Of a DNA stretch of 64,000 nucleotides, positions 2,139-12,053 are shown one piece after another. The stretch spans positions 12,358 to 76,357 of the forward strand of contig NZ_AOLI01000012.1 in the NCBI RefSeq assembly GCF_000336955.1. Reading direction: 5' to 3'. A program made the translations under genes and the position numbers. Positions within the stretch are counted from its first letter, which is position 1; each line of letters starts with the position of its first letter. Below the pieces are notes generated by a model. That model was not told the origin of the DNA. It saw only the letters and a program-made list of their open reading frames with translations, and searched no databases. Source of the stretch: Haloferax larsenii JCM 13917 (GTDB lineage: Archaea > Halobacteriota > Halobacteria > Halobacteriales > Haloferacaceae).

Positions 2139-2183
2139 TCAGCCGGTGTCCGGGACTGTTTCATTATCTGTGTGTCACTAATG

Positions 2184-2191
2184 TATTTAAA
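2184..2191 (+). promoter_or_regulatory. TATA box of aglF
   Basis: tatttaaa is centred about 26 bases before the chosen ATG at 2214. This spacing is typical of leaderless haloarchaeal transcripts and supports that start over an upstream ATG at 2181. Confidence 0.6.
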
Positions 2192-2213
2192 CAGAGCTTG
2201 TGAATACTGGTTT

Positions 2214-2945
2214 ATGCAAGCAGTCGTCCTCGCCGCTGGCAAAGGAACTCGACTCCGGCCACTCACAGAAGACAAACCGAAGGGAATGGTCGAAGTCGAC
2301 GGGAAGCCAATCCTGACACACTGTTTCGACCAACTCGTCGACCTCGGTGCGGAGAAACTCGTCGTCGTCGTCGGATACAAAAAAGAGGTCATCATCGAGC
2401 ACTACGACGACGAATACCGCGGTGTCCCTATCACGTATTCCCACCAGCGTGAACAGAAAGGACTCGCACACGCTCTCTTGACCGTCGAAGAGCACGTCGA
2501 CGAGGACTTCATGCTCATGCTCGGGGACAACATCTTCCAAGCGAACCTCGGCGACGTTGTCAAGCGTCAGCGAGAAGACCGGGCCGACGCCGCCTTCCTC
2601 GTCGAAGAGGTAGACTGGGACGAAGCGTCCCGCTACGGTGTCTGTGTGACCAACGACTACGGCGAGATTACCGAAGTCATCGAGAAACCGGAAGAGCCAC
2701 CGTCGAACCTGGTGATGACCGGCTTCTACACGTTCACCCCCGCAATCTTCCACGCGTGCCACCTCGTCCAACCGTCGAACCGCGGCGAGTACGAGATTAG
2801 CGAGGCAATCGACCTGTTGATTCGCTCAGGACGGACTATCGACGCGATTCGAATCGACGGCTGGCGGATGGACATCGGATACCCGGAAGACCGGGACGAG
2901 GCGGAGAACCGACTGCAAGGTAAAACAGAAGCGACATCTGAATAG
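2214..2945 (+). CDS. aglF: glucose-1-phosphate uridylyl/thymidylyltransferase AglF
   Basis: A cytoplasmic sugar-1-phosphate nucleotidyltransferase of 243 residues that makes the nucleotide-activated hexose for N-glycan assembly. The N-terminus has the nucleotide-binding signature [20 protein letters not shown] at residues 4-23, followed by the KPI/L loop. A conserved metal-binding region GDNIF lies near residue 103 and the sugar-binding EKPEEP near 150. Length and sequence fit the H. volcanii AglF that I recall, which acts as glucose-1-phosphate uridyltransferase upstream of AglM. The start at 2214 is chosen because the protein begins [11 protein letters not shown], as in the family, and because of the TATA spacing. 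The gene is followed on the same strand by aglI after about 47 bases, so they are probably co-transcribed. Naming rests on recall of family and gene order, not on a database search. Confidence 0.88.
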
Positions 2946-2992
2946 CAGCTAACCACCGCGCCTTTTTATTGGCGGGCGTCAACCGACTGCTA

Positions 2993-3883
2993 ATGTCGGG
3001 CTCCGACCGTCCCCGTGTCTCGGTCATCATCCCAGTCTACAACGACCCCGAGGGAATCGAGGATACGCTGACTGCACTCACCAACCAGACGTATCCAGCA
3101 GACAAGCTCGAACTCCTCCCCGTCGACAACGGGTCGACAGACAATACTCGTGAGGTCATCCGCCAGTTTGCTGCTGAAAACGAAACAGTCGAACTCGTCG
3201 TCGAAGATGAGATTCAAGGCTCGTATGCCGCTCGAAACACCGGGATTGAACGAGCCGACGGCGATGTGCTCGCCTTCGTCGACGCCGATATGTACATGGA
3301 CGAGACGTGGTTGGAGACAGCGGTCGAAGCCGTCCAAGACGCACCATACGTCGGGTGCAACGTTGAACTCGTCGTTGACGGCGACGAAACACTCGCGGCG
3401 AGGTTCGACTCCCGAACGGCGTTTCCCATCGAGCAGTACATCACCGAGCAACAGTACGCACCAACCTGCTGCCTTCTCGTCCACCGGTCGGTGTTCGAAG
3501 ACGTCGGACCGTTCGACGCGCTGTTAGTCTCTGGTGGCGATTCAGAGTTTGGAAACCGGGTCGCACAAGCAGGGTACGACCAGCAGTTCGCCGCCGAAGC
3601 GACGCTGTTCCATCCGGTTCGAGATTCGTTCTCGTCGCTCGTCAGGAAAGAACTACGCGTCGGACGGGGCCTGTGTCAGCGACAGGAGTTCTACCCAGAG
3701 CGGTTCGGACGACCCGGCATCCCACCGCGTCCGAGCGGTGCGAAATCACCCGATACGTCCTCGAATCGAGAGCGTTCGCCGGAGCAGATTCTGTTTGCGG
3801 TACTCTCGGTGGCGATGACCGGTGTTCGTGCACTCGGGTACTTCCGTGAGTACGTTCGCTACGTTCGCGGAAACGCGCGGTGA
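2993..3883 (+). CDS. aglI: GT2 glycosyltransferase AglI
   Basis: A family 2 glycosyltransferase of 296 residues that in H. volcanii adds the third sugar (a hexuronic acid) to the dolichol-phosphate-linked N-glycan. The GT-A fold signatures are visible: [10 protein letters not shown] near the N-terminus, DNGSTDNT near residue 45 and the metal-binding DxD as [10 protein letters not shown] near 98. I see no membrane segment; it is likely to work at the cytoplasmic face of the membrane. The ATG at 2993 ([11 protein letters not shown]) is preferred to an upstream TTG at 2969. It lies downstream of aglF and converges on aglG, with a 36-base gap between their stop codons. The assignment to AglI rather than another GT2 rests on position between aglF and aglG and on remembered similarity. 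Confidence 0.85.
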
Positions 3884-3919: not shown

Positions 3920-4861
3920 CTACGCGTTCGTCTTCTCCACTAGGTCCGGCGTCAACAACCCGTAGACGTAGCCAAAGCCGACAGCAGCGGTGAACACGAA
4001 GATAGCAATCAGTTGCTGGACCTTCGCCATCGACGGCTCTTTGACGAGTTTGACGAGGCGGTCGACGACGTAGACGAGCATCAGGTCTCGCAGGTAGTCG
4101 TTCTTGTCGCCCGAGGCCTCGGGGTACAAGAGGTCCATCACGCGCTTCGAGTAGCCCTGCCAGAACGACCGGAAGACGAGCCAGCGGAACTTGGTGCGGT
4201 ACTCGAAGAGCTTGTGGTCGACGCGGGCGCGCTTGTTGTAGATGACGCGCTTGCCGGTGTTGTTGTAGATGCGGATACAGACGGGTGCTTCGTGGGCTTG
4301 CACGTGCTTGTCGCCCTTCCGGCCGGTGTTCGTGTCGTAGCCACCGGCTTCGAGGAACACGTCGCGCTTGAACGAGATGTTCGAGCCGTAGGTGTTTCGG
4401 ACACGTTCCATGTGGTGTCCGAATCCGCGTTCGTCACAGCCGACGAGCCAGTAGAACTCCTCCGGGAAGAAGTCGGGCTTGCGAGCGACCCAGTCGGGGA
4501 CGACAGTGCCGCCGACGGCGACAGCCTCGGGATTCTCCTCGTAGGTCTCGACCAGCGTCTCGATCCAGTCTGGTCGGGCCGTCGCGTCGTCGTCGATCAT
4601 CGCGACGACGTCGCCCGAGGCGAGTTCGGCACCCTTCGTCCGACTGTAGGAGATACCTCGGTTTTCGTCGTTGCAGTGGAGGACGACGTTCTCTCTGTCG
4701 CCGAAGTCTTCCTCGACACGCGCAAACACTTCCTCGTTCCCGTCGACGACGAGGACCACTTCGAGGGGTTCGTAGGTCTGTTCGAGCACGCTCTCGACGG
4801 CTTCGGTAAACGGTTCGTACCGTTCCATCGAGTAGGTACAGACCACGACGGAGACTTTCAT
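3920..4861 (-). CDS. aglG: GT2 glycosyltransferase AglG
   Basis: A 313-residue family 2 glycosyltransferase. In H. volcanii AglG adds the second sugar, a hexuronic acid, to the lipid-linked N-glycan precursor. The protein starts MKVSVVVCTYSMERY, has DGNEEVF near residue 40 and the metal-binding motif MIDDDATARPDW near 90. A hydrophobic segment close to the C-terminus (about 285-305, AIFVFTAAVGFGYVYGL) could anchor it in the membrane. It is the only agl gene of the aglF-aglB stretch on the minus strand and diverges from aglB across 115 bases. That gap must hold both promoters. The donor should be UDP-glucuronic acid supplied by AglM nearby; this is known for the pathway, not visible in sequence. 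Confidence 0.86.
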   Translation of the reverse strand: MKVSVVVCTYSMERYEPFTEAVESVLEQTYEPLEVVLVVDGNEEVFARVEEDFGDRENVVLHCNDENRGISYSRTKGAELASGDVVAMIDDDATARPDWIETLVETYEENPEAVAVGGTVVPDWVARKPDFFPEEFYWLVGCDERGFGHHMERVRNTYGSNISFKRDVFLEAGGYDTNTGRKGDKHVQAHEAPVCIRIYNNTGKRVIYNKRARVDHKLFEYRTKFRWLVFRSFWQGYSKRVMDLLYPEASGDKNDYLRDLMLVYVVDRLVKLVKEPSMAKVQQLIAIFVFTAAVGFGYVYGLLTPDLVEKTNA

Positions 4862-4976
4862 CGCCCGGTGCTACCGAGGACGGCCGAATAAGCATTGTCC
4901 TTCGGTCGAATTCACCCAAATCGGTCGAAATCGCCTATCACAAGGCTTATGAAAGGCTTGACAGTTGTTGGGCACA

Positions 4977-7900
4977 ATGAGCGACGAGCAACGAGAGTAT
5001 TCGCCTTCCGTAGCGGATCTCGCTCGCGACTGGTATCACATACCGGTCCTCTCGGCTATCGTCCTCGTCATGCTGTGGATACGACTCCGCAGCTACGAGG
5101 CGTTTACCCGAGCGGGCTCGGTGTATTTCTCAGGAAACGACGCCTGGTATCATCTTCGCCAGGTCGAATACACGGTCAAGCACTGGCCTGCAACCATGCC
5201 GTTCGACCCGTGGACGGAGTTCCCGTTCGGAACGAGCGCGGGACAGTTCGGGACGATTTACGACCAACTCGTCGCGACCGCGGCACTCGTCGTCGGGCTC
5301 GGTAGCCCGTCGTCCGACTTGGTCGCCAAGACGCTGTTGGTCGCCCCACCCATCTTCGGTGCCCTGATTGCGATTCCGACGTACCTCATCGGCAAGCGTC
5401 TCGGTGGCCGACTTGCCGGTCTCTTCGGCGCGGCCGTCCTGATGCTCCTCCCCGGAACGTTCCTCCAGCGCGGTCTGGTCGGGTTCGCCGACCACAACAT
5501 TGTCGAGCCGCTGTTCCAGGGCTTCGCCGTCCTCGCTGTCATGATCGCCCTCACGGTCGCCGAGCGCGAGAAACCCGTCTGGGAACTCGTTCAAGCCCGC
5601 GACCTCGACGCCCTCCGTGAGCCACTGAAGTGGTCTGCACTCGCTGGCGTCGCGATTGCGCTGTACATGTGGTCGTGGCCGCCGGGCATCCTTCTGGTCG
5701 GTATCTTCGGTCTCTTCCTCGTCTTGAAGATGACTTCCGACTACGTTCGCGGACGCTCGCCGGAGCACGCCGCGTTCGTCGGAGCGGTGTCGATGCTCGT
5801 CACTGCAGTCCTGATGGTCGTCCCGTTCAACGAGCCGACGTTCGGTGTCACCGACTTCGGCTTCCTTCAGCCGCTTTTCTCCCTCGGTGTCGGTCTCGGT
5901 GCCGTGTTCCTCGCTGGCCTCGCCCGCTGGTGGGAGTCGAACGACGTCGACGACCGCGGCTACCCGGCTGCGGTCGGTGGTATCGCAGTCGTCGGACTCG
6001 TGCTGTTTTCGGTGGTTCTTCCGGACGTATTCGGAAGCATCGCACGGAACTTCCTCCGCACCGTTGGCTTCAGCGCCGGTGCGGCGACGCGAACCATCGG
6101 TGAGGCACAACCGTTCCTCGCCCAGAACACGCTGCAGGCAGCCGGTATCTCCGCCGTCGACCGCATCATGTCGGAGTACGGCTTCACGTTCTTCACCGGT
6201 GTTGCCGCTGCCATCTGGTTCGTCGCCAAACCGCTCGTCCGAGACGGCGAGACGCGCAAGATTGGCTACGCCGCAGGTGGTCTCGCAGGCATCGGCCTCC
6301 TCTTTTTGCTTCCGGTTATCCCGGACAGCATCGGCGGCCTCGTCGGTCTCGAATCCTCGCTTGTCAGTCTCGGTATCGTCACCGCCATCATCGTCGGTGC
6401 GGTGATGCAGGCTGACTACGAGAGCGAACACCTCTTCGTCCTCGTGTGGGCGGCCATCATGACGTCGGCCGCGTTCACGCAGGTTCGTTTCAACTACTAC
6501 CTCGCGGTCGTCGTCGCGGTCATGAACGCGTATCTCCTCCGCGAGGTGCTCGCCATCGACTTCGTCGGTCTCGCTGACATCGACCGACTCGACGACGTTT
6601 CGCCGGGACAGGTCGCCGCGGTCGCTATCGCGGTGCTCCTCGTCCTCACGCCGGTCCTCATCGTCCCGGTTCAACTCGGGAACGGACAGGCGACCAACAC
6701 TGCGTATCAGGCCGCCGAAACCGGCCCCGGCCCAGTCACGCAGTGGGACGGGACTCTCGGCTGGATGCAGAACAACACCCCGAAGGAGGGGTCCTTCGGC
6801 GGTGCATCGAACGAGATGGACTACTACGGGACGTACAAATACACGGACGACTTCGACTACCCTGACGGCGCCTACGGCGTGATGTCGTGGTGGGACTACG
6901 GTCACTGGATTACCCTCCTCGGCGAACGAATTCCGAACGCGAACCCGTTCCAGGGTGGTGCGACGGAGGCGGCGAACTTCCTGCTCGCCCCCGACGAGGA
7001 GCAGGCGTCTGACGTCCTCTCCTCGATGGGCGACGACGGTGAAGGCGAGAACACGCGCTACGTCATGGTCGACTGGCAGATGGCCTCGACCGAGTCGAAG
7101 TTCGGCGCACCGACCGTCTGGTACGACCAGTCGAACATCTCCACCTCGGACTTCTACAACCGCGTCTACCGCCTGCAGGAGCAGGACGGCCAGACGCGCC
7201 TCGTCTCCTCTGCGAACGTTCACGACCAGCGGTACTACGAGAGCCTCATGGTTCGGCTCTACAAGTTCCACGGGAGCGCAACGGCACCCTCGCCCATCGT
7301 CGTCGACTGGGAGGAACGCACCAACGCCGACGGTTCGGTGACGTTCCGCACGACACCCGCTGACGGCCAAGCGGTCAAGACGTTCGACAACATGAGCGCG
7401 GCCGAGGAGTACGTCGCCAACGACCCGACCTCGCAGATTGGCGGCATTGGCTCGTTCCCCGAAGAGCGCGTCGAGGCACTCGAACACTACCGCCTCGTGA
7501 AGTCGTCGAACAGTTCGTCGCTCCGCTCCGGTTCCTATCAGAACTCGCTCGTTCGCGCGCGCAGCACCTACGGCATCCAGCCACAGGCGCTGCTCGGTAA
7601 CAACCCGGCGTGGGTCAAGACGTTCGAGCGCGTCCCCGGTGCGACGGTCGAAGGCAGCGGTGCCCCGGCCAACACGACGGTGACTGCTCGCGTCCAGATG
7701 CGCGACCTGACGAAGGGTACGAACTTCACCTACACCCAGCAGGCGCAGACCGACGAGAACGGTGAGTTCACGATGACGCTGCCGTACTCGACGACCGGCT
7801 ACGACGACTACGGTCCCGAAAACGGCTACACGAACGTCAGCGTCCGCGCGACTGGTGACTACACCTTCGCCGGACCGACGTCGTTCGAAGGCAACAACAC

Positions 7901-8159
7901 CATCGTCAGATATCAAGCACAGAACGTCAGCGTGGACGAAGGCCTCGTCAACGGTGCTGAAGACGGCACCGTCGAGGTGACGCTCGAACGCGCCGAGTCC
8001 GAGCTCTCGTTCAACAACGACGAAGCGTCTTCGAACGAAACCGCCACGAACGAGACGGCAACGAACGAGTCGGCAACCAACGAAACTGCGACGAACGACA
8101 CGTCGACCAACGAGTCGGCCGCCATCGACGCCGGCGCGCTGACCGCGGTCGTCGCGTAA
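4977..8159 (+). CDS. aglB: oligosaccharyltransferase AglB
   Basis: The 1060-residue membrane enzyme that transfers the glycan from dolichol phosphate to Asn of secreted proteins. The N-terminal half is multispanning, from about residue 20 to 570. Metal-binding regions GNDAWYH (near 50) and FADHN (near 170) lie in the first external loops. The STT3/AglB catalytic signature WWDYG is at 638-642 in the external domain. The ATG at 4977 (MSDEQREYS) is chosen over a TTG four codons upstream. The C-terminus is unusual: six sequons of the form N-E/D-T/S repeat every five residues from 1020 to 1045, followed by a short hydrophobic tail. Other sequons lie in the external domain. It diverges from aglG and is followed by convergent aglM. 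Identity is secure from size and motifs. Confidence 0.95.
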   Translation: MSDEQREYSPSVADLARDWYHIPVLSAIVLVMLWIRLRSYEAFTRAGSVYFSGNDAWYHLRQVEYTVKHWPATMPFDPWTEFPFGTSAGQFGTIYDQLVATAALVVGLGSPSSDLVAKTLLVAPPIFGALIAIPTYLIGKRLGGRLAGLFGAAVLMLLPGTFLQRGLVGFADHNIVEPLFQGFAVLAVMIALTVAEREKPVWELVQARDLDALREPLKWSALAGVAIALYMWSWPPGILLVGIFGLFLVLKMTSDYVRGRSPEHAAFVGAVSMLVTAVLMVVPFNEPTFGVTDFGFLQPLFSLGVGLGAVFLAGLARWWESNDVDDRGYPAAVGGIAVVGLVLFSVVLPDVFGSIARNFLRTVGFSAGAATRTIGEAQPFLAQNTLQAAGISAVDRIMSEYGFTFFTGVAAAIWFVAKPLVRDGETRKIGYAAGGLAGIGLLFLLPVIPDSIGGLVGLESSLVSLGIVTAIIVGAVMQADYESEHLFVLVWAAIMTSAAFTQVRFNYYLAVVVAVMNAYLLREVLAIDFVGLADIDRLDDVSPGQVAAVAIAVLLVLTPVLIVPVQLGNGQATNTAYQAAETGPGPVTQWDGTLGWMQNNTPKEGSFGGASNEMDYYGTYKYTDDFDYPDGAYGVMSWWDYGHWITLLGERIPNANPFQGGATEAANFLLAPDEEQASDVLSSMGDDGEGENTRYVMVDWQMASTESKFGAPTVWYDQSNISTSDFYNRVYRLQEQDGQTRLVSSANVHDQRYYESLMVRLYKFHGSATAPSPIVVDWEERTNADGSVTFRTTPADGQAVKTFDNMSAAEEYVANDPTSQIGGIGSFPEERVEALEHYRLVKSSNSSSLRSGSYQNSLVRARSTYGIQPQALLGNNPAWVKTFERVPGATVEGSGAPANTTVTARVQMRDLTKGTNFTYTQQAQTDENGEFTMTLPYSTTGYDDYGPENGYTNVSVRATGDYTFAGPTSFEGNNTIVRYQAQNVSVDEGLVNGAEDGTVEVTLERAESELSFNNDEASSNETATNETATNESATNETATNDTSTNESAAIDAGALTAVVA
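8034..8120 (+). repeat. 15-base coding repeat encoding six N-glycosylation sequons
   Basis: Within the 3' end of aglB a degenerate 15-base unit repeats about six times and encodes N-E/D-T/S-A/S-T. Asn codons fall at residues 1020, 1025, 1030, 1035, 1040 and 1045 of the protein. Length could vary between strains by slippage. Confidence 0.85.
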
Positions 8160-8321: not shown

Positions 8322-8387
8322 CCTCAGGCGAGCGGTTCGTAGTCCTCAGGCGAGTGACTCGGAGTCCTCAGACCAACGACTCGTAGT
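8322..8387 (-). repeat. three tandem 22-base repeats at the aglM 3' end
   Basis: Copies lie at 8322-8343, 8344-8365 and 8366-8387. Each starts cctcag and ends with a close variant of gactcgtagt. The third copy contains the last codons and stop of aglM, so the other two look like duplications of the gene's 3' end beyond its stop. Confidence 0.75.
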
Positions 8388-9660
8388 CGATACCGTCGCG
8401 GCGAGTGACGATGCGGCGACCGTCGATGACGACGGGCTCGCGCATCTCGTCGAACTGCTCGTCGAGCGCGGCGAACTCGTCCCAGGCGGTTGCGACGAGC
8501 GCGGCGTCCGCATCGACGAGCGCGGCGGCCGCAGAGTCCGCGTAGTCGATGTCGGGGAACCGTTCGCGCATGTTCTCGGTCGCGACGGGGTCGTAGCCGA
8601 CGACGTCCGCGCCCGCGTCGAGCAGTGCCTCGACGAGCGGAATCGACCGCGACGAGCGAATGTCGTCGGTACCGGGCTTGAACGAGAGTCCGAGGACGGC
8701 GACGCGCTTGCCTTCGGGGTCGAACCGCTTTCGAAGGAGGTCGAGCATACGTTCTGGCTGGCCGTCGTTGACGTCGATAGCGGCTTGCAGGAGGCGTGGT
8801 TCGTAGCCGCGTTCGCGGGCAGCAGCGATGATTGCGGCGGTGTCTTTCGGGAAGCACGAGCCACCCCAGCCGAGACCCGCACCGAGGAACGCAGCGCCGA
8901 TACGGGAGTCGAGGCCGATAGCGTCGAGCACTTCCGCGGAGTCGACGTCGAACTCCTTGCAGATGTTCGCGAGGTCGTTCGCGAGACTTATTTTCGAAGC
9001 GAGGAAGGCGTTGTTCGCGTACTTAATCATCTCCGCTTCTCGGATACCGGTCTCGACGACCGGCGGGTCGTCCGCGTGGTCGACGAGCGGAGCGAAGATG
9101 TCGTCGAGGCGGTCGAACGCGCGGTCAGTGTGGGCACCGAGGACGACCTTGTCGGGGTCGAGGAAGTCCTCGACTGCGGTCCCTTCGCGCTGGAACTCGG
9201 GGTTCATCGCAATGTCGAACTCCTCGCCGACGGTCTTGCCGGCGGCTGCCGCGACGCGCGGGCCGACGACCTCCTCGGTCGTCGTCGGAACGACCGTACT
9301 CTTCGTGACGACGAGGTGGTAGTCGTCTTTGGTGGCGAGCGTCTCCCCGAGCGACGTGGACGCCGCTTTCACCGCACCGAGGTCGATGCTGCCGTCGTCG
9401 TTGGCAGGCGTCTGGAGGGCGAGGAACGTCGCGTCGGTGTCGAGAATCGCCTCGTAGTCGGTCGTCGCTCGGAGTCGGTCGCCGGCGTGTTCGGCGACGA
9501 GTTCGTCGAGGCCCGGTTCGTGAATCGGCGAGCGGCCATCGTTGAGTGTGTCGACGATGTCCTCGTCGATGTCGACGGTGACGACGTCGTGGCCCAACTC
9601 CGCGAAACACGCCGCGATTGTGGTGCCTACGTACCCACTCCCGATGATGCTGAGCTTCAT
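8368..9660 (-). CDS. aglM: UDP-glucose 6-dehydrogenase AglM
   Basis: A cytoplasmic enzyme of 430 residues that oxidises UDP-glucose to UDP-glucuronic acid with NAD, supplying hexuronic acid donors for AglG, AglI and others. The N-terminal Rossmann motif GSGYVGTTIAACFAELGHDV begins at residue 7. Catalytic residues typical of the family are visible: PEFQREGTA (Glu region, near 155), a Lys/Asn segment IKYANNAFLASKI (near 215), and the nucleophilic Cys in GWGGSCFPKD (near 258). A C-terminal UDP-binding domain follows, with LGLSFKPGTDDIRSSRS near 325. It converges on aglB and diverges from a DUF368 gene. The 3' end is embedded in a set of tandem 22-base repeats. Identity as AglM follows from the family and the position next to aglB. 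Confidence 0.92.
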   Translation of the reverse strand: MKLSIIGSGYVGTTIAACFAELGHDVVTVDIDEDIVDTLNDGRSPIHEPGLDELVAEHAGDRLRATTDYEAILDTDATFLALQTPANDDGSIDLGAVKAASTSLGETLATKDDYHLVVTKSTVVPTTTEEVVGPRVAAAAGKTVGEEFDIAMNPEFQREGTAVEDFLDPDKVVLGAHTDRAFDRLDDIFAPLVDHADDPPVVETGIREAEMIKYANNAFLASKISLANDLANICKEFDVDSAEVLDAIGLDSRIGAAFLGAGLGWGGSCFPKDTAAIIAAARERGYEPRLLQAAIDVNDGQPERMLDLLRKRFDPEGKRVAVLGLSFKPGTDDIRSSRSIPLVEALLDAGADVVGYDPVATENMRERFPDIDYADSAAAALVDADAALVATAWDEFAALDEQFDEMREPVVIDGRRIVTRRDGIDYESLV

Positions 9661-9765
9661 TACGTCACCTGTCGCTTCGGAGTGGTTTCATTCTTTCCGA
9701 CGGGCGCGTTCGGCAGCTCGGCGCGACGCACGCCGACCGAACAAAGTGGCGAAATAGCGTGTCTA

Positions 9766-9789
9766 AACGTACTTTCTGAACGTACTTTC
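9766..9789. repeat. 11-base direct repeat in the aglM/DUF368 divergent promoter region
   Basis: aacgtactttc occurs at 9766-9776 and again at 9779-9789, about 100 bases upstream of the aglM start codon and 55 upstream of the DUF368 start. It could be a regulator site serving either gene; no function can be read directly. Confidence 0.5.
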
Positions 9790-9842
9790 GCGGACACGAA
9801 CGGTGGACTCATATCCCTCGCGGAGAAGCTTCGGAACACGAA

Positions 9843-10811
9843 ATGACGACGGGAACCGACGAACGGTCCGCGCTCGTGCCCTGGGTAATCCTCTATCTGA
9901 AAGGCGTCTGTATGGGTACGGCCGACGCCGTTCCGGGCGTCTCCGGCGGTACAATCGCACTCATCACCGGCATCTACGAACGGCTTATCAGTGCGCTCAC
10001 TGCCATCACGCCGACGCGTATCCAGCGCGTTCTCTCGGGTATCGCATCGACCCGACGCGAAGATGCCCTCTCCGCGCTCCGCGAGATAGACGTCGGATTC
10101 CTGCTCGTCCTCGGTGCGGGTATCGCCACTGCCGTCATCACCGTGACGCGCGTCCTCCACACCGCTATCGACCAGTATCCGGTCATCACGTTCGGGTTCT
10201 TCTTCGGTCTCATCGGCGCGTCGGCCGTCGTGCTGTACGCGCAAGTCTCACTCGACGGCCCGCGGCAACTCGCTGCGGCCGCCGCCGGATTCCTCCTCGC
10301 CTTCGTCGCGTCGGGGACCGCCGGCACCGCACTCGGTCACTCGCCACCGGCGACCATGTTCGCGGGCGCAATCGCGGTGAGTGCGATGATTCTCCCCGGT
10401 ATCTCGGGGTCACTCCTCCTGCTGCTCCTCGGTCAGTACGAGTTCATGACGGAGGCACTCAAGACGTTCGTCGACGCGCTTTTGGACGTTGTGACGGGCG
10501 GCCCAGTCGCCGCACTCGTCGAACCGGGAGCCATCGTCGTCGCGTTCATCGGCGGCGCGCTCGTCGGCCTGTTCACCATCGCCCACGCCGTTCGCTGGGC
10601 GCTCGAACACTACCGACGTGCGACCCTCGCGTTCCTCGTGAGCCTCATCGTCGGCGCACTCCGCGCACCAATCGTCAAAGCCAGCGAAAAGCTCGCCGAA
10701 GGGAACCAGCCGTGGACCGCCGAACTCGTCGGCATCTTCGCCGTCACAGCGGTTATCGGAGCCGCAATCGTCCTCCTCGTTGACCGATACACGTCGGTCA
10801 TCGAGTCCTAA
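9843..10811 (+). CDS. DUF368 membrane protein, candidate polyprenyl-phosphate transporter
   Basis: A 322-residue integral membrane protein with roughly eight to ten hydrophobic segments. It carries the family hallmark in two inverted-type repeats: DAVPGVSGGTIALITGIYER near residue 30 and ILPGISGSLLLLLLGQYE near 185. In bacteria, members of the DUF368 family have been shown to move undecaprenyl phosphate back across the cytoplasmic membrane. In this archaeon the equivalent cargo would be dolichol phosphate released by AglB, which fits the divergent position beside aglM. That substrate is inference. The ATG at 9843 is the first codon of the coherent frame. Downstream it converges on a methyltransferase gene with a 33-base gap. 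Confidence 0.8.
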   Translation: MTTGTDERSALVPWVILYLKGVCMGTADAVPGVSGGTIALITGIYERLISALTAITPTRIQRVLSGIASTRREDALSALREIDVGFLLVLGAGIATAVITVTRVLHTAIDQYPVITFGFFFGLIGASAVVLYAQVSLDGPRQLAAAAAGFLLAFVASGTAGTALGHSPPATMFAGAIAVSAMILPGISGSLLLLLLGQYEFMTEALKTFVDALLDVVTGGPVAALVEPGAIVVAFIGGALVGLFTIAHAVRWALEHYRRATLAFLVSLIVGALRAPIVKASEKLAEGNQPWTAELVGIFAVTAVIGAAIVLLVDRYTSVIES

Positions 10812-10844: not shown

Positions 10845-11399
10845 TTACCGCCGAGCCACGCAGACGAACGTCTCGCGTCGCGTCGCCCCGTGAGTGACGG
10901 TGAACCCGGCCGCTTCGAAGGCTTCGACGGCGTCTCCGAGTCCGAATCGTTCGTCAGTCGGTGGCCCAGCTTCTCCGTCGCCAGCGGTGGACCAGTCGAT
11001 GGTGACGACGTGACCGCCGGGCGCGACGACCCGCGCAATTTCGGTCAGCGCCTCGTCGGTGGCGAACTCGTGGTAGGTCATCGTCGAGAACGCGGCGTCG
11101 AGGTGGTCGTCGTCGAAGGGAAGCGAGGCGACGTCCGCGGTGACGAACTCCACGTTCTCCGGGGTGCCCTTGTCGCGGTAGAAGTCGTGCATCGCCTCCT
11201 GTACGTCCACGGCGTACATCGTGTCGACGAACGGCGCGACGTCGTCGGTGAAGAAGCCAGTTCCACTCCCGAGGTCGGCGACGACGTCCCCCGGACGCGG
11301 GTCGAGCAGGGAGAGTAATTCTTCACGAGAGACGAACCGGTATCGACTCGGGTCGTCGAGCTTCGCCGCAGAGTCGACGTCGAAGGTGTGAAATCCCAT
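10845..11399 (-). CDS. class I SAM-dependent methyltransferase
   Basis: A 184-residue soluble protein with the seven-stranded methyltransferase fold. Motif I is VADLGSGTGFFTDDV near residue 40, an acidic residue follows at MYAVDVQEAM, and motif II/III appear as EFVTADVASLPF and APGGHVVTIDW. The start MGFHTFDVDS at 11399 is chosen because it keeps the normal family length; an open frame continues far upstream but would add about 160 residues with no domain. It resembles UbiE/Methyltransf_11 members. The substrate cannot be told. It has no obvious partner; the next gene is divergent. Confidence 0.75.
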   Translation of the reverse strand: MGFHTFDVDSAAKLDDPSRYRFVSREELLSLLDPRPGDVVADLGSGTGFFTDDVAPFVDTMYAVDVQEAMHDFYRDKGTPENVEFVTADVASLPFDDDHLDAAFSTMTYHEFATDEALTEIARVVAPGGHVVTIDWSTAGDGEAGPPTDERFGLGDAVEAFEAAGFTVTHGATRRETFVCVARR

Positions 11400-11528
11400 A
11401 CGAGAGGTGTGTTCGGCAGGTGCTAAGTCCCATCGGTTACGTCTCGGTTGTGCCCGGTGAGCACACGATAAAGACCGAATATGCCGTCGGCGATGGGCTT
11501 TTGCGTGCCGACAGACACCATTGGAGAT

Positions 11529-11717
11529 ATGGAACCCCAACTTCGACGACCGACTCGACGCGCCTGCGAGCGCTGTGGTCGCGTGGAACGATGGGACGGC
11601 GACGCGGCGACGTGGCGTGTCGCGTCCGAAGACGGCGACAAGCAGGTCGGAAACCCCTACTGCATCCACGAGTGGGACATCAACGGCCGCTTTGCGCCCT
11701 TCGAAGAACCGGCGTAA
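11529..11717 (+). CDS. small HEWD-family protein, possible zinc finger
   Basis: A 62-residue protein typical of haloarchaea. It holds a CxxC pair at residues 13-16 (ACERCGR) and the sequence YCIHEWDING at 44-53, the hallmark of HEWD family proteins. Cys13, Cys16, Cys45 and His47 could bind zinc, which is inference. The ATG at 11529 is chosen over an upstream in-frame ATG at 11481 because the family begins shortly before the CxxC. The cutA gene starts 24 bases downstream on the same strand and may be co-transcribed. Function is unknown. Confidence 0.7.
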   Translation: MEPQLRRPTRRACERCGRVERWDGDAATWRVASEDGDKQVGNPYCIHEWDINGRFAPFEEPA

Positions 11718-11741
11718 CACGACGAGACGAGTTACACAGCG

Positions 11742-12053
11742 ATGCCGACAGCATACGTGACTGCACCGCCCGACGCGGCAGCCGAACTCGCCCGAACGCT
11801 CGTCGAGGAACGACTTGCGGCGTGCGTGAACCGCGTCCCCTGCCAGTCGGTGTATCGGTGGGACGGCGAGGTCCACGACGACGACGAGGTCATCCTACTC
11901 GCGAAGACGACCGACGACCGATACGACGAGTTCGCCTCGCGGGTGGTCGAACTCCACCCATACGACGTGCCCTGTGTCGAACGGTTCGACGAATCCCACG
12001 TCCTCGACGAGTACGCGACGTGGGTCTCGGACGAAGTATCGGACCAAAACTAG
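11742..12053 (+). CDS. cutA: CutA1-like divalent cation tolerance protein
   Basis: A 103-residue member of the CutA1 family, small trimeric cytosolic proteins with a ferredoxin-like fold linked to copper tolerance or signalling. The sequence follows the family from end to end: MPTAYVTAPPDAAAELARTL at the N-terminus, LAACVNRVPCQSVYRWDGEV at about 25-45, EVILLAKTTDDRY in the middle and HPYDVPCVE near 75. The Cys in AACVN is the conserved one. Length matches the family. It follows the HEWD gene by 24 bases and converges on the HAD phosphatase. Confidence 0.9.
   Translation: MPTAYVTAPPDAAAELARTLVEERLAACVNRVPCQSVYRWDGEVHDDDEVILLAKTTDDRYDEFASRVVELHPYDVPCVERFDESHVLDEYATWVSDEVSDQN

Follow-up and report, generated by a model that had tools for sequence, protein, structure and literature searches.

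A DUF368-family gene paired with aglB across Halobacteria, the best candidate for returning the used sugar-carrier lipid in haloarchaea

DUF368 proteins have been described as undecaprenyl-phosphate translocases (Sit et al. 2022, PMC9876793). V. cholerae needs its family member vca0040 chiefly when the pH is alkaline and sodium is high, and the H. volcanii protein HVO_RS12060 partly complements the delta-vca0040 mutant by restoring alkaline growth, in a bacterial host and with undecaprenyl phosphate as the lipid (PMC9876793). The same study reports an enrichment of the family in Halobacteria and remarks on a possible bearing on dolichyl phosphate; the words glycosylation and neighbourhood are absent from its main text (PMC9876793). 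The current Pfam description of the family, PF04018, reads undecaprenyl phosphate translocase-like. The name PopT is said to have been given to the family in concurrent work by Roney and Rudner in 2023.

The lipid expected in archaea is a different one. Archaeal N-glycans characterised so far are carried on dolichol monophosphate (PMC4476749), and AglB of H. volcanii transfers the glycan after a flipping step has brought the loaded carrier to the other side of the membrane (PMC3871713). Since the carrier is a monophosphate and the transfer follows flipping, AglB would leave dolichyl monophosphate behind in the outer leaflet; this lipid is the dolichol counterpart of the known substrate of the DUF368 family and would need no pyrophosphatase before transport. 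AglR and Agl15, candidate flippases in these glycosylation pathways (PMC3871713), are proposed to move the sugar-loaded carrier outward, whereas a DUF368 protein would bring the empty carrier back. The literature searched contained no assignment of the return of dolichyl phosphate to the inner leaflet in archaea, and no assay of transport, glycosylation or carrier pool in an archaeal DUF368 mutant. A sequence-only reading of the DNA studied here had called this archaeal step poorly assigned. It is less open than that, because the H. volcanii DUF368 protein has already been tested in V. cholerae (PMC9876793); with the DUF368/PopT family and this partial complementation already known, the gene can no longer be counted as unassigned.

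The window, i.e. the whole 64,000-nucleotide stretch of Haloferax larsenii JCM 13917 that was analysed, contains the DUF368 gene within a block of glycosylation genes (Table 1). AglF, AglG, AglB and AglM all score above the cut-offs of the curated NCBIfam models, so the glycosylation block recognised in the sequence-only reading is real, and its head-to-head arrangement of the DUF368 gene with aglM is likewise borne out by the start-to-start spacing on opposite strands. The GT2 gene of the block may be named AglI, judging from its position. That reading did not mention, however, that aglB itself lies two genes from the DUF368 gene on the same strand. HVO_RS12060 is also two locus tags after aglB of H. 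volcanii, HVO_RS12050 (PMC7749143). Although from another species, it belongs to the same genus and its place matches the order aglB-aglM-DUF368; the tag numbering and the gene order in the sister species lead us to infer that it is the direct ortholog of the window gene.

Table 1. Features of the window at and around the DUF368 gene (positions in the window).
Feature	Coordinates	Strand	Details
aglF, UTP-glucose-1-phosphate uridylyltransferase	2172..2945	+	NF041313 448 bits, cut-off 400
GT2 glycosyltransferase of agl block	2969..3883	+	PF00535; AglI-like by position
aglG glycosyltransferase	3920..4861	-	NF041394 523 bits, cut-off 440
aglB, oligosaccharyltransferase	4965..8159	+	PF02516, PF22627, PF18079; TIGR04154 997 bits, cut-off 450
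aglM, UDP-glucose 6-dehydrogenase, between aglB and DUF368	8368..9660	-	NF041297 746 bits, cut-off 670
Divergent intergenic region aglM/DUF368, 182 nt	9661..9842		genes head to head
DUF368/PopT-family gene	9843..10811	+	322 aa; PF04018 E=9e-66; AlphaFold2 mean pLDDT 90.9
Signature repeat 1, GVCMGTADAVPGVSGGTIALITGIYERLI	9903..9989	+	residues 21-49; invariant columns in alignment
Signature repeat 2, GAIAVSAMILPGISGSLLLLLLGQYE	10365..10442	+	residues 175-200; invariant columns in alignment
SAM-methyltransferase-domain protein, convergent with DUF368	10845..11876	-	Pfam match

The window gene is an unbroken ORF with an ATG start, and its translation matches PF04018 over residues 24-278 (profile positions 1-230 of 246) with a score of 222 bits (cut-off 26). 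A profile search of its own 3.7-Mb genome found PF04018 once, so DUF368 is single copy there. The two signature repeats had been read as intact from the letters, and the alignment agrees: the PG, S and G of both PGxSG motifs are unchanged in all 58 aligned relatives, in which G21, M24, G25, P31, G32, S34, G35, T37, A39, G43 and Y45 of repeat 1 and G175, P185, G186, S188 and G189 of repeat 2 are invariant. The protein thus shares with the bacterial PopT/DUF368 members, VCA0040 of V. cholerae and SAOUHSC_00846 of S. aureus, both its Pfam family and its two repeats; unlike them, it is encoded next to the genes of AglB-dependent glycosylation, with dolichyl rather than undecaprenyl phosphate as the expected substrate. 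A profile-profile alignment of the N-terminal half with the C-terminal half (probability 97.4%, E=1.5e-11) confirms an internal duplication. In the AlphaFold2 model, which is all-helical, a helix is interrupted at each PGxSG motif, in keeping with a predicted polytopic helical membrane protein.

PopT-type models are the sole NCBIfam matches of the window protein, but the two PopT equivalogs NF052563 and NF052564 score 90 and 188 bits, far under their 400-bit cut-off; the protein is a member of the DUF368 family that lies outside the NCBIfam definitions of PopT. The nearest named relative, from H. elongans, is 98% identical, and the relatives that share the gene order are approximately 70-77% identical. 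The PDB contains no sequence relative, and a Foldseek search returned nothing below E=0.1. A likeness to ZIP transporters in VIA-align (best Z 9.4, rmsd 4.2, 162 residues) was set aside, as it falls within the common range of that tool for helical proteins.

To describe the surroundings of aglB across Halobacteria, we tabulated the genes in the 20 kb around it in one genome from each of 67 genera. DUF368 is the commonest conserved neighbour (48/67 genera), with aglG in second place (37/67), followed by glpA (25/67) and cdc6 (18/67). The sugar genes also rank below DUF368, and aglM occurs in just 9/67. Since these genomes share ancestry, the linkage counts are not independent, and the fair control is the other neighbours of aglB. 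The DUF368 gene lies directly downstream on the same strand with a gap of at most 60 nt in 36 of the 48 linked genera, and in 13 of the 48 the two genes overlap or abut. Such short gaps and overlaps suggest co-transcription and coupled translation of the pair. In the course of these comparisons no gene that fuses AglB with DUF368 came to notice.

The pairing is most regular in the family to which the window belongs, where DUF368 is found in 116/119 genomes and both DUF368 and AglB in all 104 genomes of good quality. Among the 109 genomes that have the two genes on a single contig, 102 place DUF368 behind aglB, on the same strand and no more than 3.5 kb away. Throughout the class, DUF368 occurs in 144/145 genomes and follows aglB on the same strand within 3.6 kb in 159 of the 206 genomes that list both genes; linked genomes are known from 50 of 64 genera, with nine families represented. 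AglB without DUF368 was seen in one complete Halobacteria genome. The pairing with aglB is a strong genomic link of DUF368 to N-glycosylation. The literature searched contained no earlier report of this pairing, although Roney and Rudner 2023 may describe one.

The sequence-only reading had named aglM as the partner, and this part of it does not hold. The neighbour table speaks for DUF368 beside aglB rather than beside aglM, and aglM is missing from the vicinity of aglB in four of the nine named Haloferax species with aglB in view: five of them have the order aglB-aglM-DUF368, and four have DUF368 directly behind aglB. Judged against these species, the window shows a local variant in which aglM lies between the two genes on the other strand, and since aglM splits aglB from DUF368, the pair cannot be one simple operon here.

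We conclude, with fair confidence, that the window gene encodes a polyprenyl-phosphate transporter of the PopT type, which would move dolichyl monophosphate back into the inner leaflet. This retains the recycling transporter proposed from the sequence, in that PF04018 is a polyprenyl-phosphate translocase family, and replaces its partner aglM with aglB. The DUF368 protein is the best candidate for returning the used sugar-carrier lipid to the cell inside in haloarchaea; we infer that dolichyl phosphate is its substrate, that transport is inward and that it serves glycosylation. At the cell surface, AglB transfers the glycan from dolichyl phosphate to asparagine, and the freed dolichyl phosphate is left in the outer leaflet. 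The DUF368 protein, built of two related halves with a helix break at each PGxSG, would then bind the phosphate head group and return the lipid to the cytoplasmic side, to be reloaded there by AglJ and AglD-type glycosyltransferases. In a stronger form, which we regard as rather improbable, aglB and popT would be an old haloarchaeal module with coupled translation, and AglB would hand dolichyl phosphate straight to a physically paired transporter; if so, carrier supply would be tied to the rate of glycosylation.

A near-universal haloarchaeal gene that is tied by position to aglB, and whose family has been shown to translocate polyprenyl phosphate in bacteria, makes the carrier-return question testable by deletion in H. 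volcanii, where mass spectrometry of glycans and dolichyl phosphate is already routine. The aglB setting also offers a natural context for the DUF368 family outside peptidoglycan. The six matches to PF09335, the DedA/VTT domain, in the genome of the window make redundancy likely, however, so that a single DUF368 deletion may show little.

DedA proteins can do the same carrier-return job in bacteria. The DedA/UptA (VTT) undecaprenyl-phosphate transporters thus share the proposed task of the window protein while belonging to another Pfam family; the Pfam search of the window protein gave PF04018 only, without PF09335. It is a possible but less likely account that DedA proteins are the main recyclers of dolichyl phosphate in Haloferax and that DUF368 is a conditional, partly redundant transporter for high pH or high sodium. 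The six DedA matches, the presence of DedA in every Halobacteria genome of the sample searched and the similarly conditional need for vca0040 described above agree with such a division of labour, as does the finding that several non-halophilic members of the phylum possess DedA and lack DUF368. Against a secondary role stand the presence of DUF368 in nearly all Halobacteria genomes and its close pairing with aglB.

Explanations that place the gene outside the AglB cycle seem less probable still. DUF368 might move polyprenyl phosphate chiefly for another pathway, such as the AglD/AglS mannosyl-dolichyl-phosphate branch or the low-salt glycan, its place then reflecting a general clustering of surface-glycan genes. 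AglS likewise uses a dolichyl-phosphate mannose donor outside the cell (PMC3871713), and a few genomes have glycosyltransferase or methyltransferase genes near unlinked DUF368 copies; we nevertheless consider this unlikely, as the partner is specifically aglB, with genes that overlap, and not the cluster as a whole. If all branches draw on one common pool, moreover, it would not be a true alternative. Finally, the pairing could be inherited synteny devoid of functional meaning, given that glpA and cdc6, which are not glycosylation genes, are likewise kept roughly 10 kb or less from aglB. Yet DUF368 is kept in far more genera than either, immediately adjacent and with start and stop codons that overlap or abut in over a quarter of the linked genera, and the pairing spans nine families whose other neighbours have changed, which leaves mere synteny very improbable.

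Most exceptions to the linkage trace to a paralogue, since the unlinked copies mostly form one separate clade. In a tree of 79 DUF368 proteins, the aglB-linked copies from nine families stand apart from a clade of unlinked copies (support 100/97) that holds 15 of the 20 unlinked copies examined. This clade comes mainly from two families, which we take to be Haloarculaceae and Natrialbaceae; some genomes carry it alongside a linked copy, others have it as their sole DUF368. Fourteen genera contain no linked genome, and for 11 of them the tree includes proteins of the unlinked clade only, a paralogue that has possibly replaced the linked gene. Rarely has the aglB-type gene itself become separated: this is seen in part of one genus of the window's own family and in single cases in three other genera. 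No clear conserved neighbourhood emerged around the unlinked copies, for which methyltransferase domains (6/113) and GT2 (5/113) were counted among the flanking ORFs. A copy of the unlinked clade is also present as an extra DUF368 in a Haloferax genome.

Beyond Halobacteria the association fades. DUF368 was found in 21 of 124 sampled genomes from the rest of the phylum, all 21 of which carry an STT3-type oligosaccharyltransferase; among those tested, DUF368 was never directly beside STT3/AglB. Only in three genomes of one non-halophilic family do the two genes come close, about 13-15 kb apart, and at six other loci AglB was not among the commonest neighbour families. The neighbourhood link proposed for archaeal DUF368 genes is thus present across Halobacteria and loose or absent elsewhere. 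With a link of this kind and with many members of the phylum lacking DUF368, the gene is unlikely to be a general archaeal solution, and its partnership with AglB is therefore haloarchaeal and not general to archaea. Mutual exclusion of DUF368 and DedA in the same 124 genomes, in which they occur 21 and 53 times, was too weak to rely on, with 6 genomes having both against about 9 by chance. In the non-halophilic family, the genes around the DUF368/AglB region include a chaperonin, TiaS, a CAAX-protease-like gene and a glycosyltransferase.

Several minor features of the window may be recorded. The SAM-methyltransferase-domain gene is separated from DUF368 by a 33-nt gap and is kept nearby in 13/67 genera. 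A carbohydrate esterase of the SASA family (PF03629; 276-1358, + strand) lies immediately before the agl block; among the 67 genera, this genome alone has it near aglB. The ORF between it and aglF (1607-2104, + strand) has, by eye, the look of a truncated transposase. The intergenic region between aglM and DUF368 contains two direct copies of aacgtactttc at about 9765-9795, which may be a regulatory site or a chance repeat.
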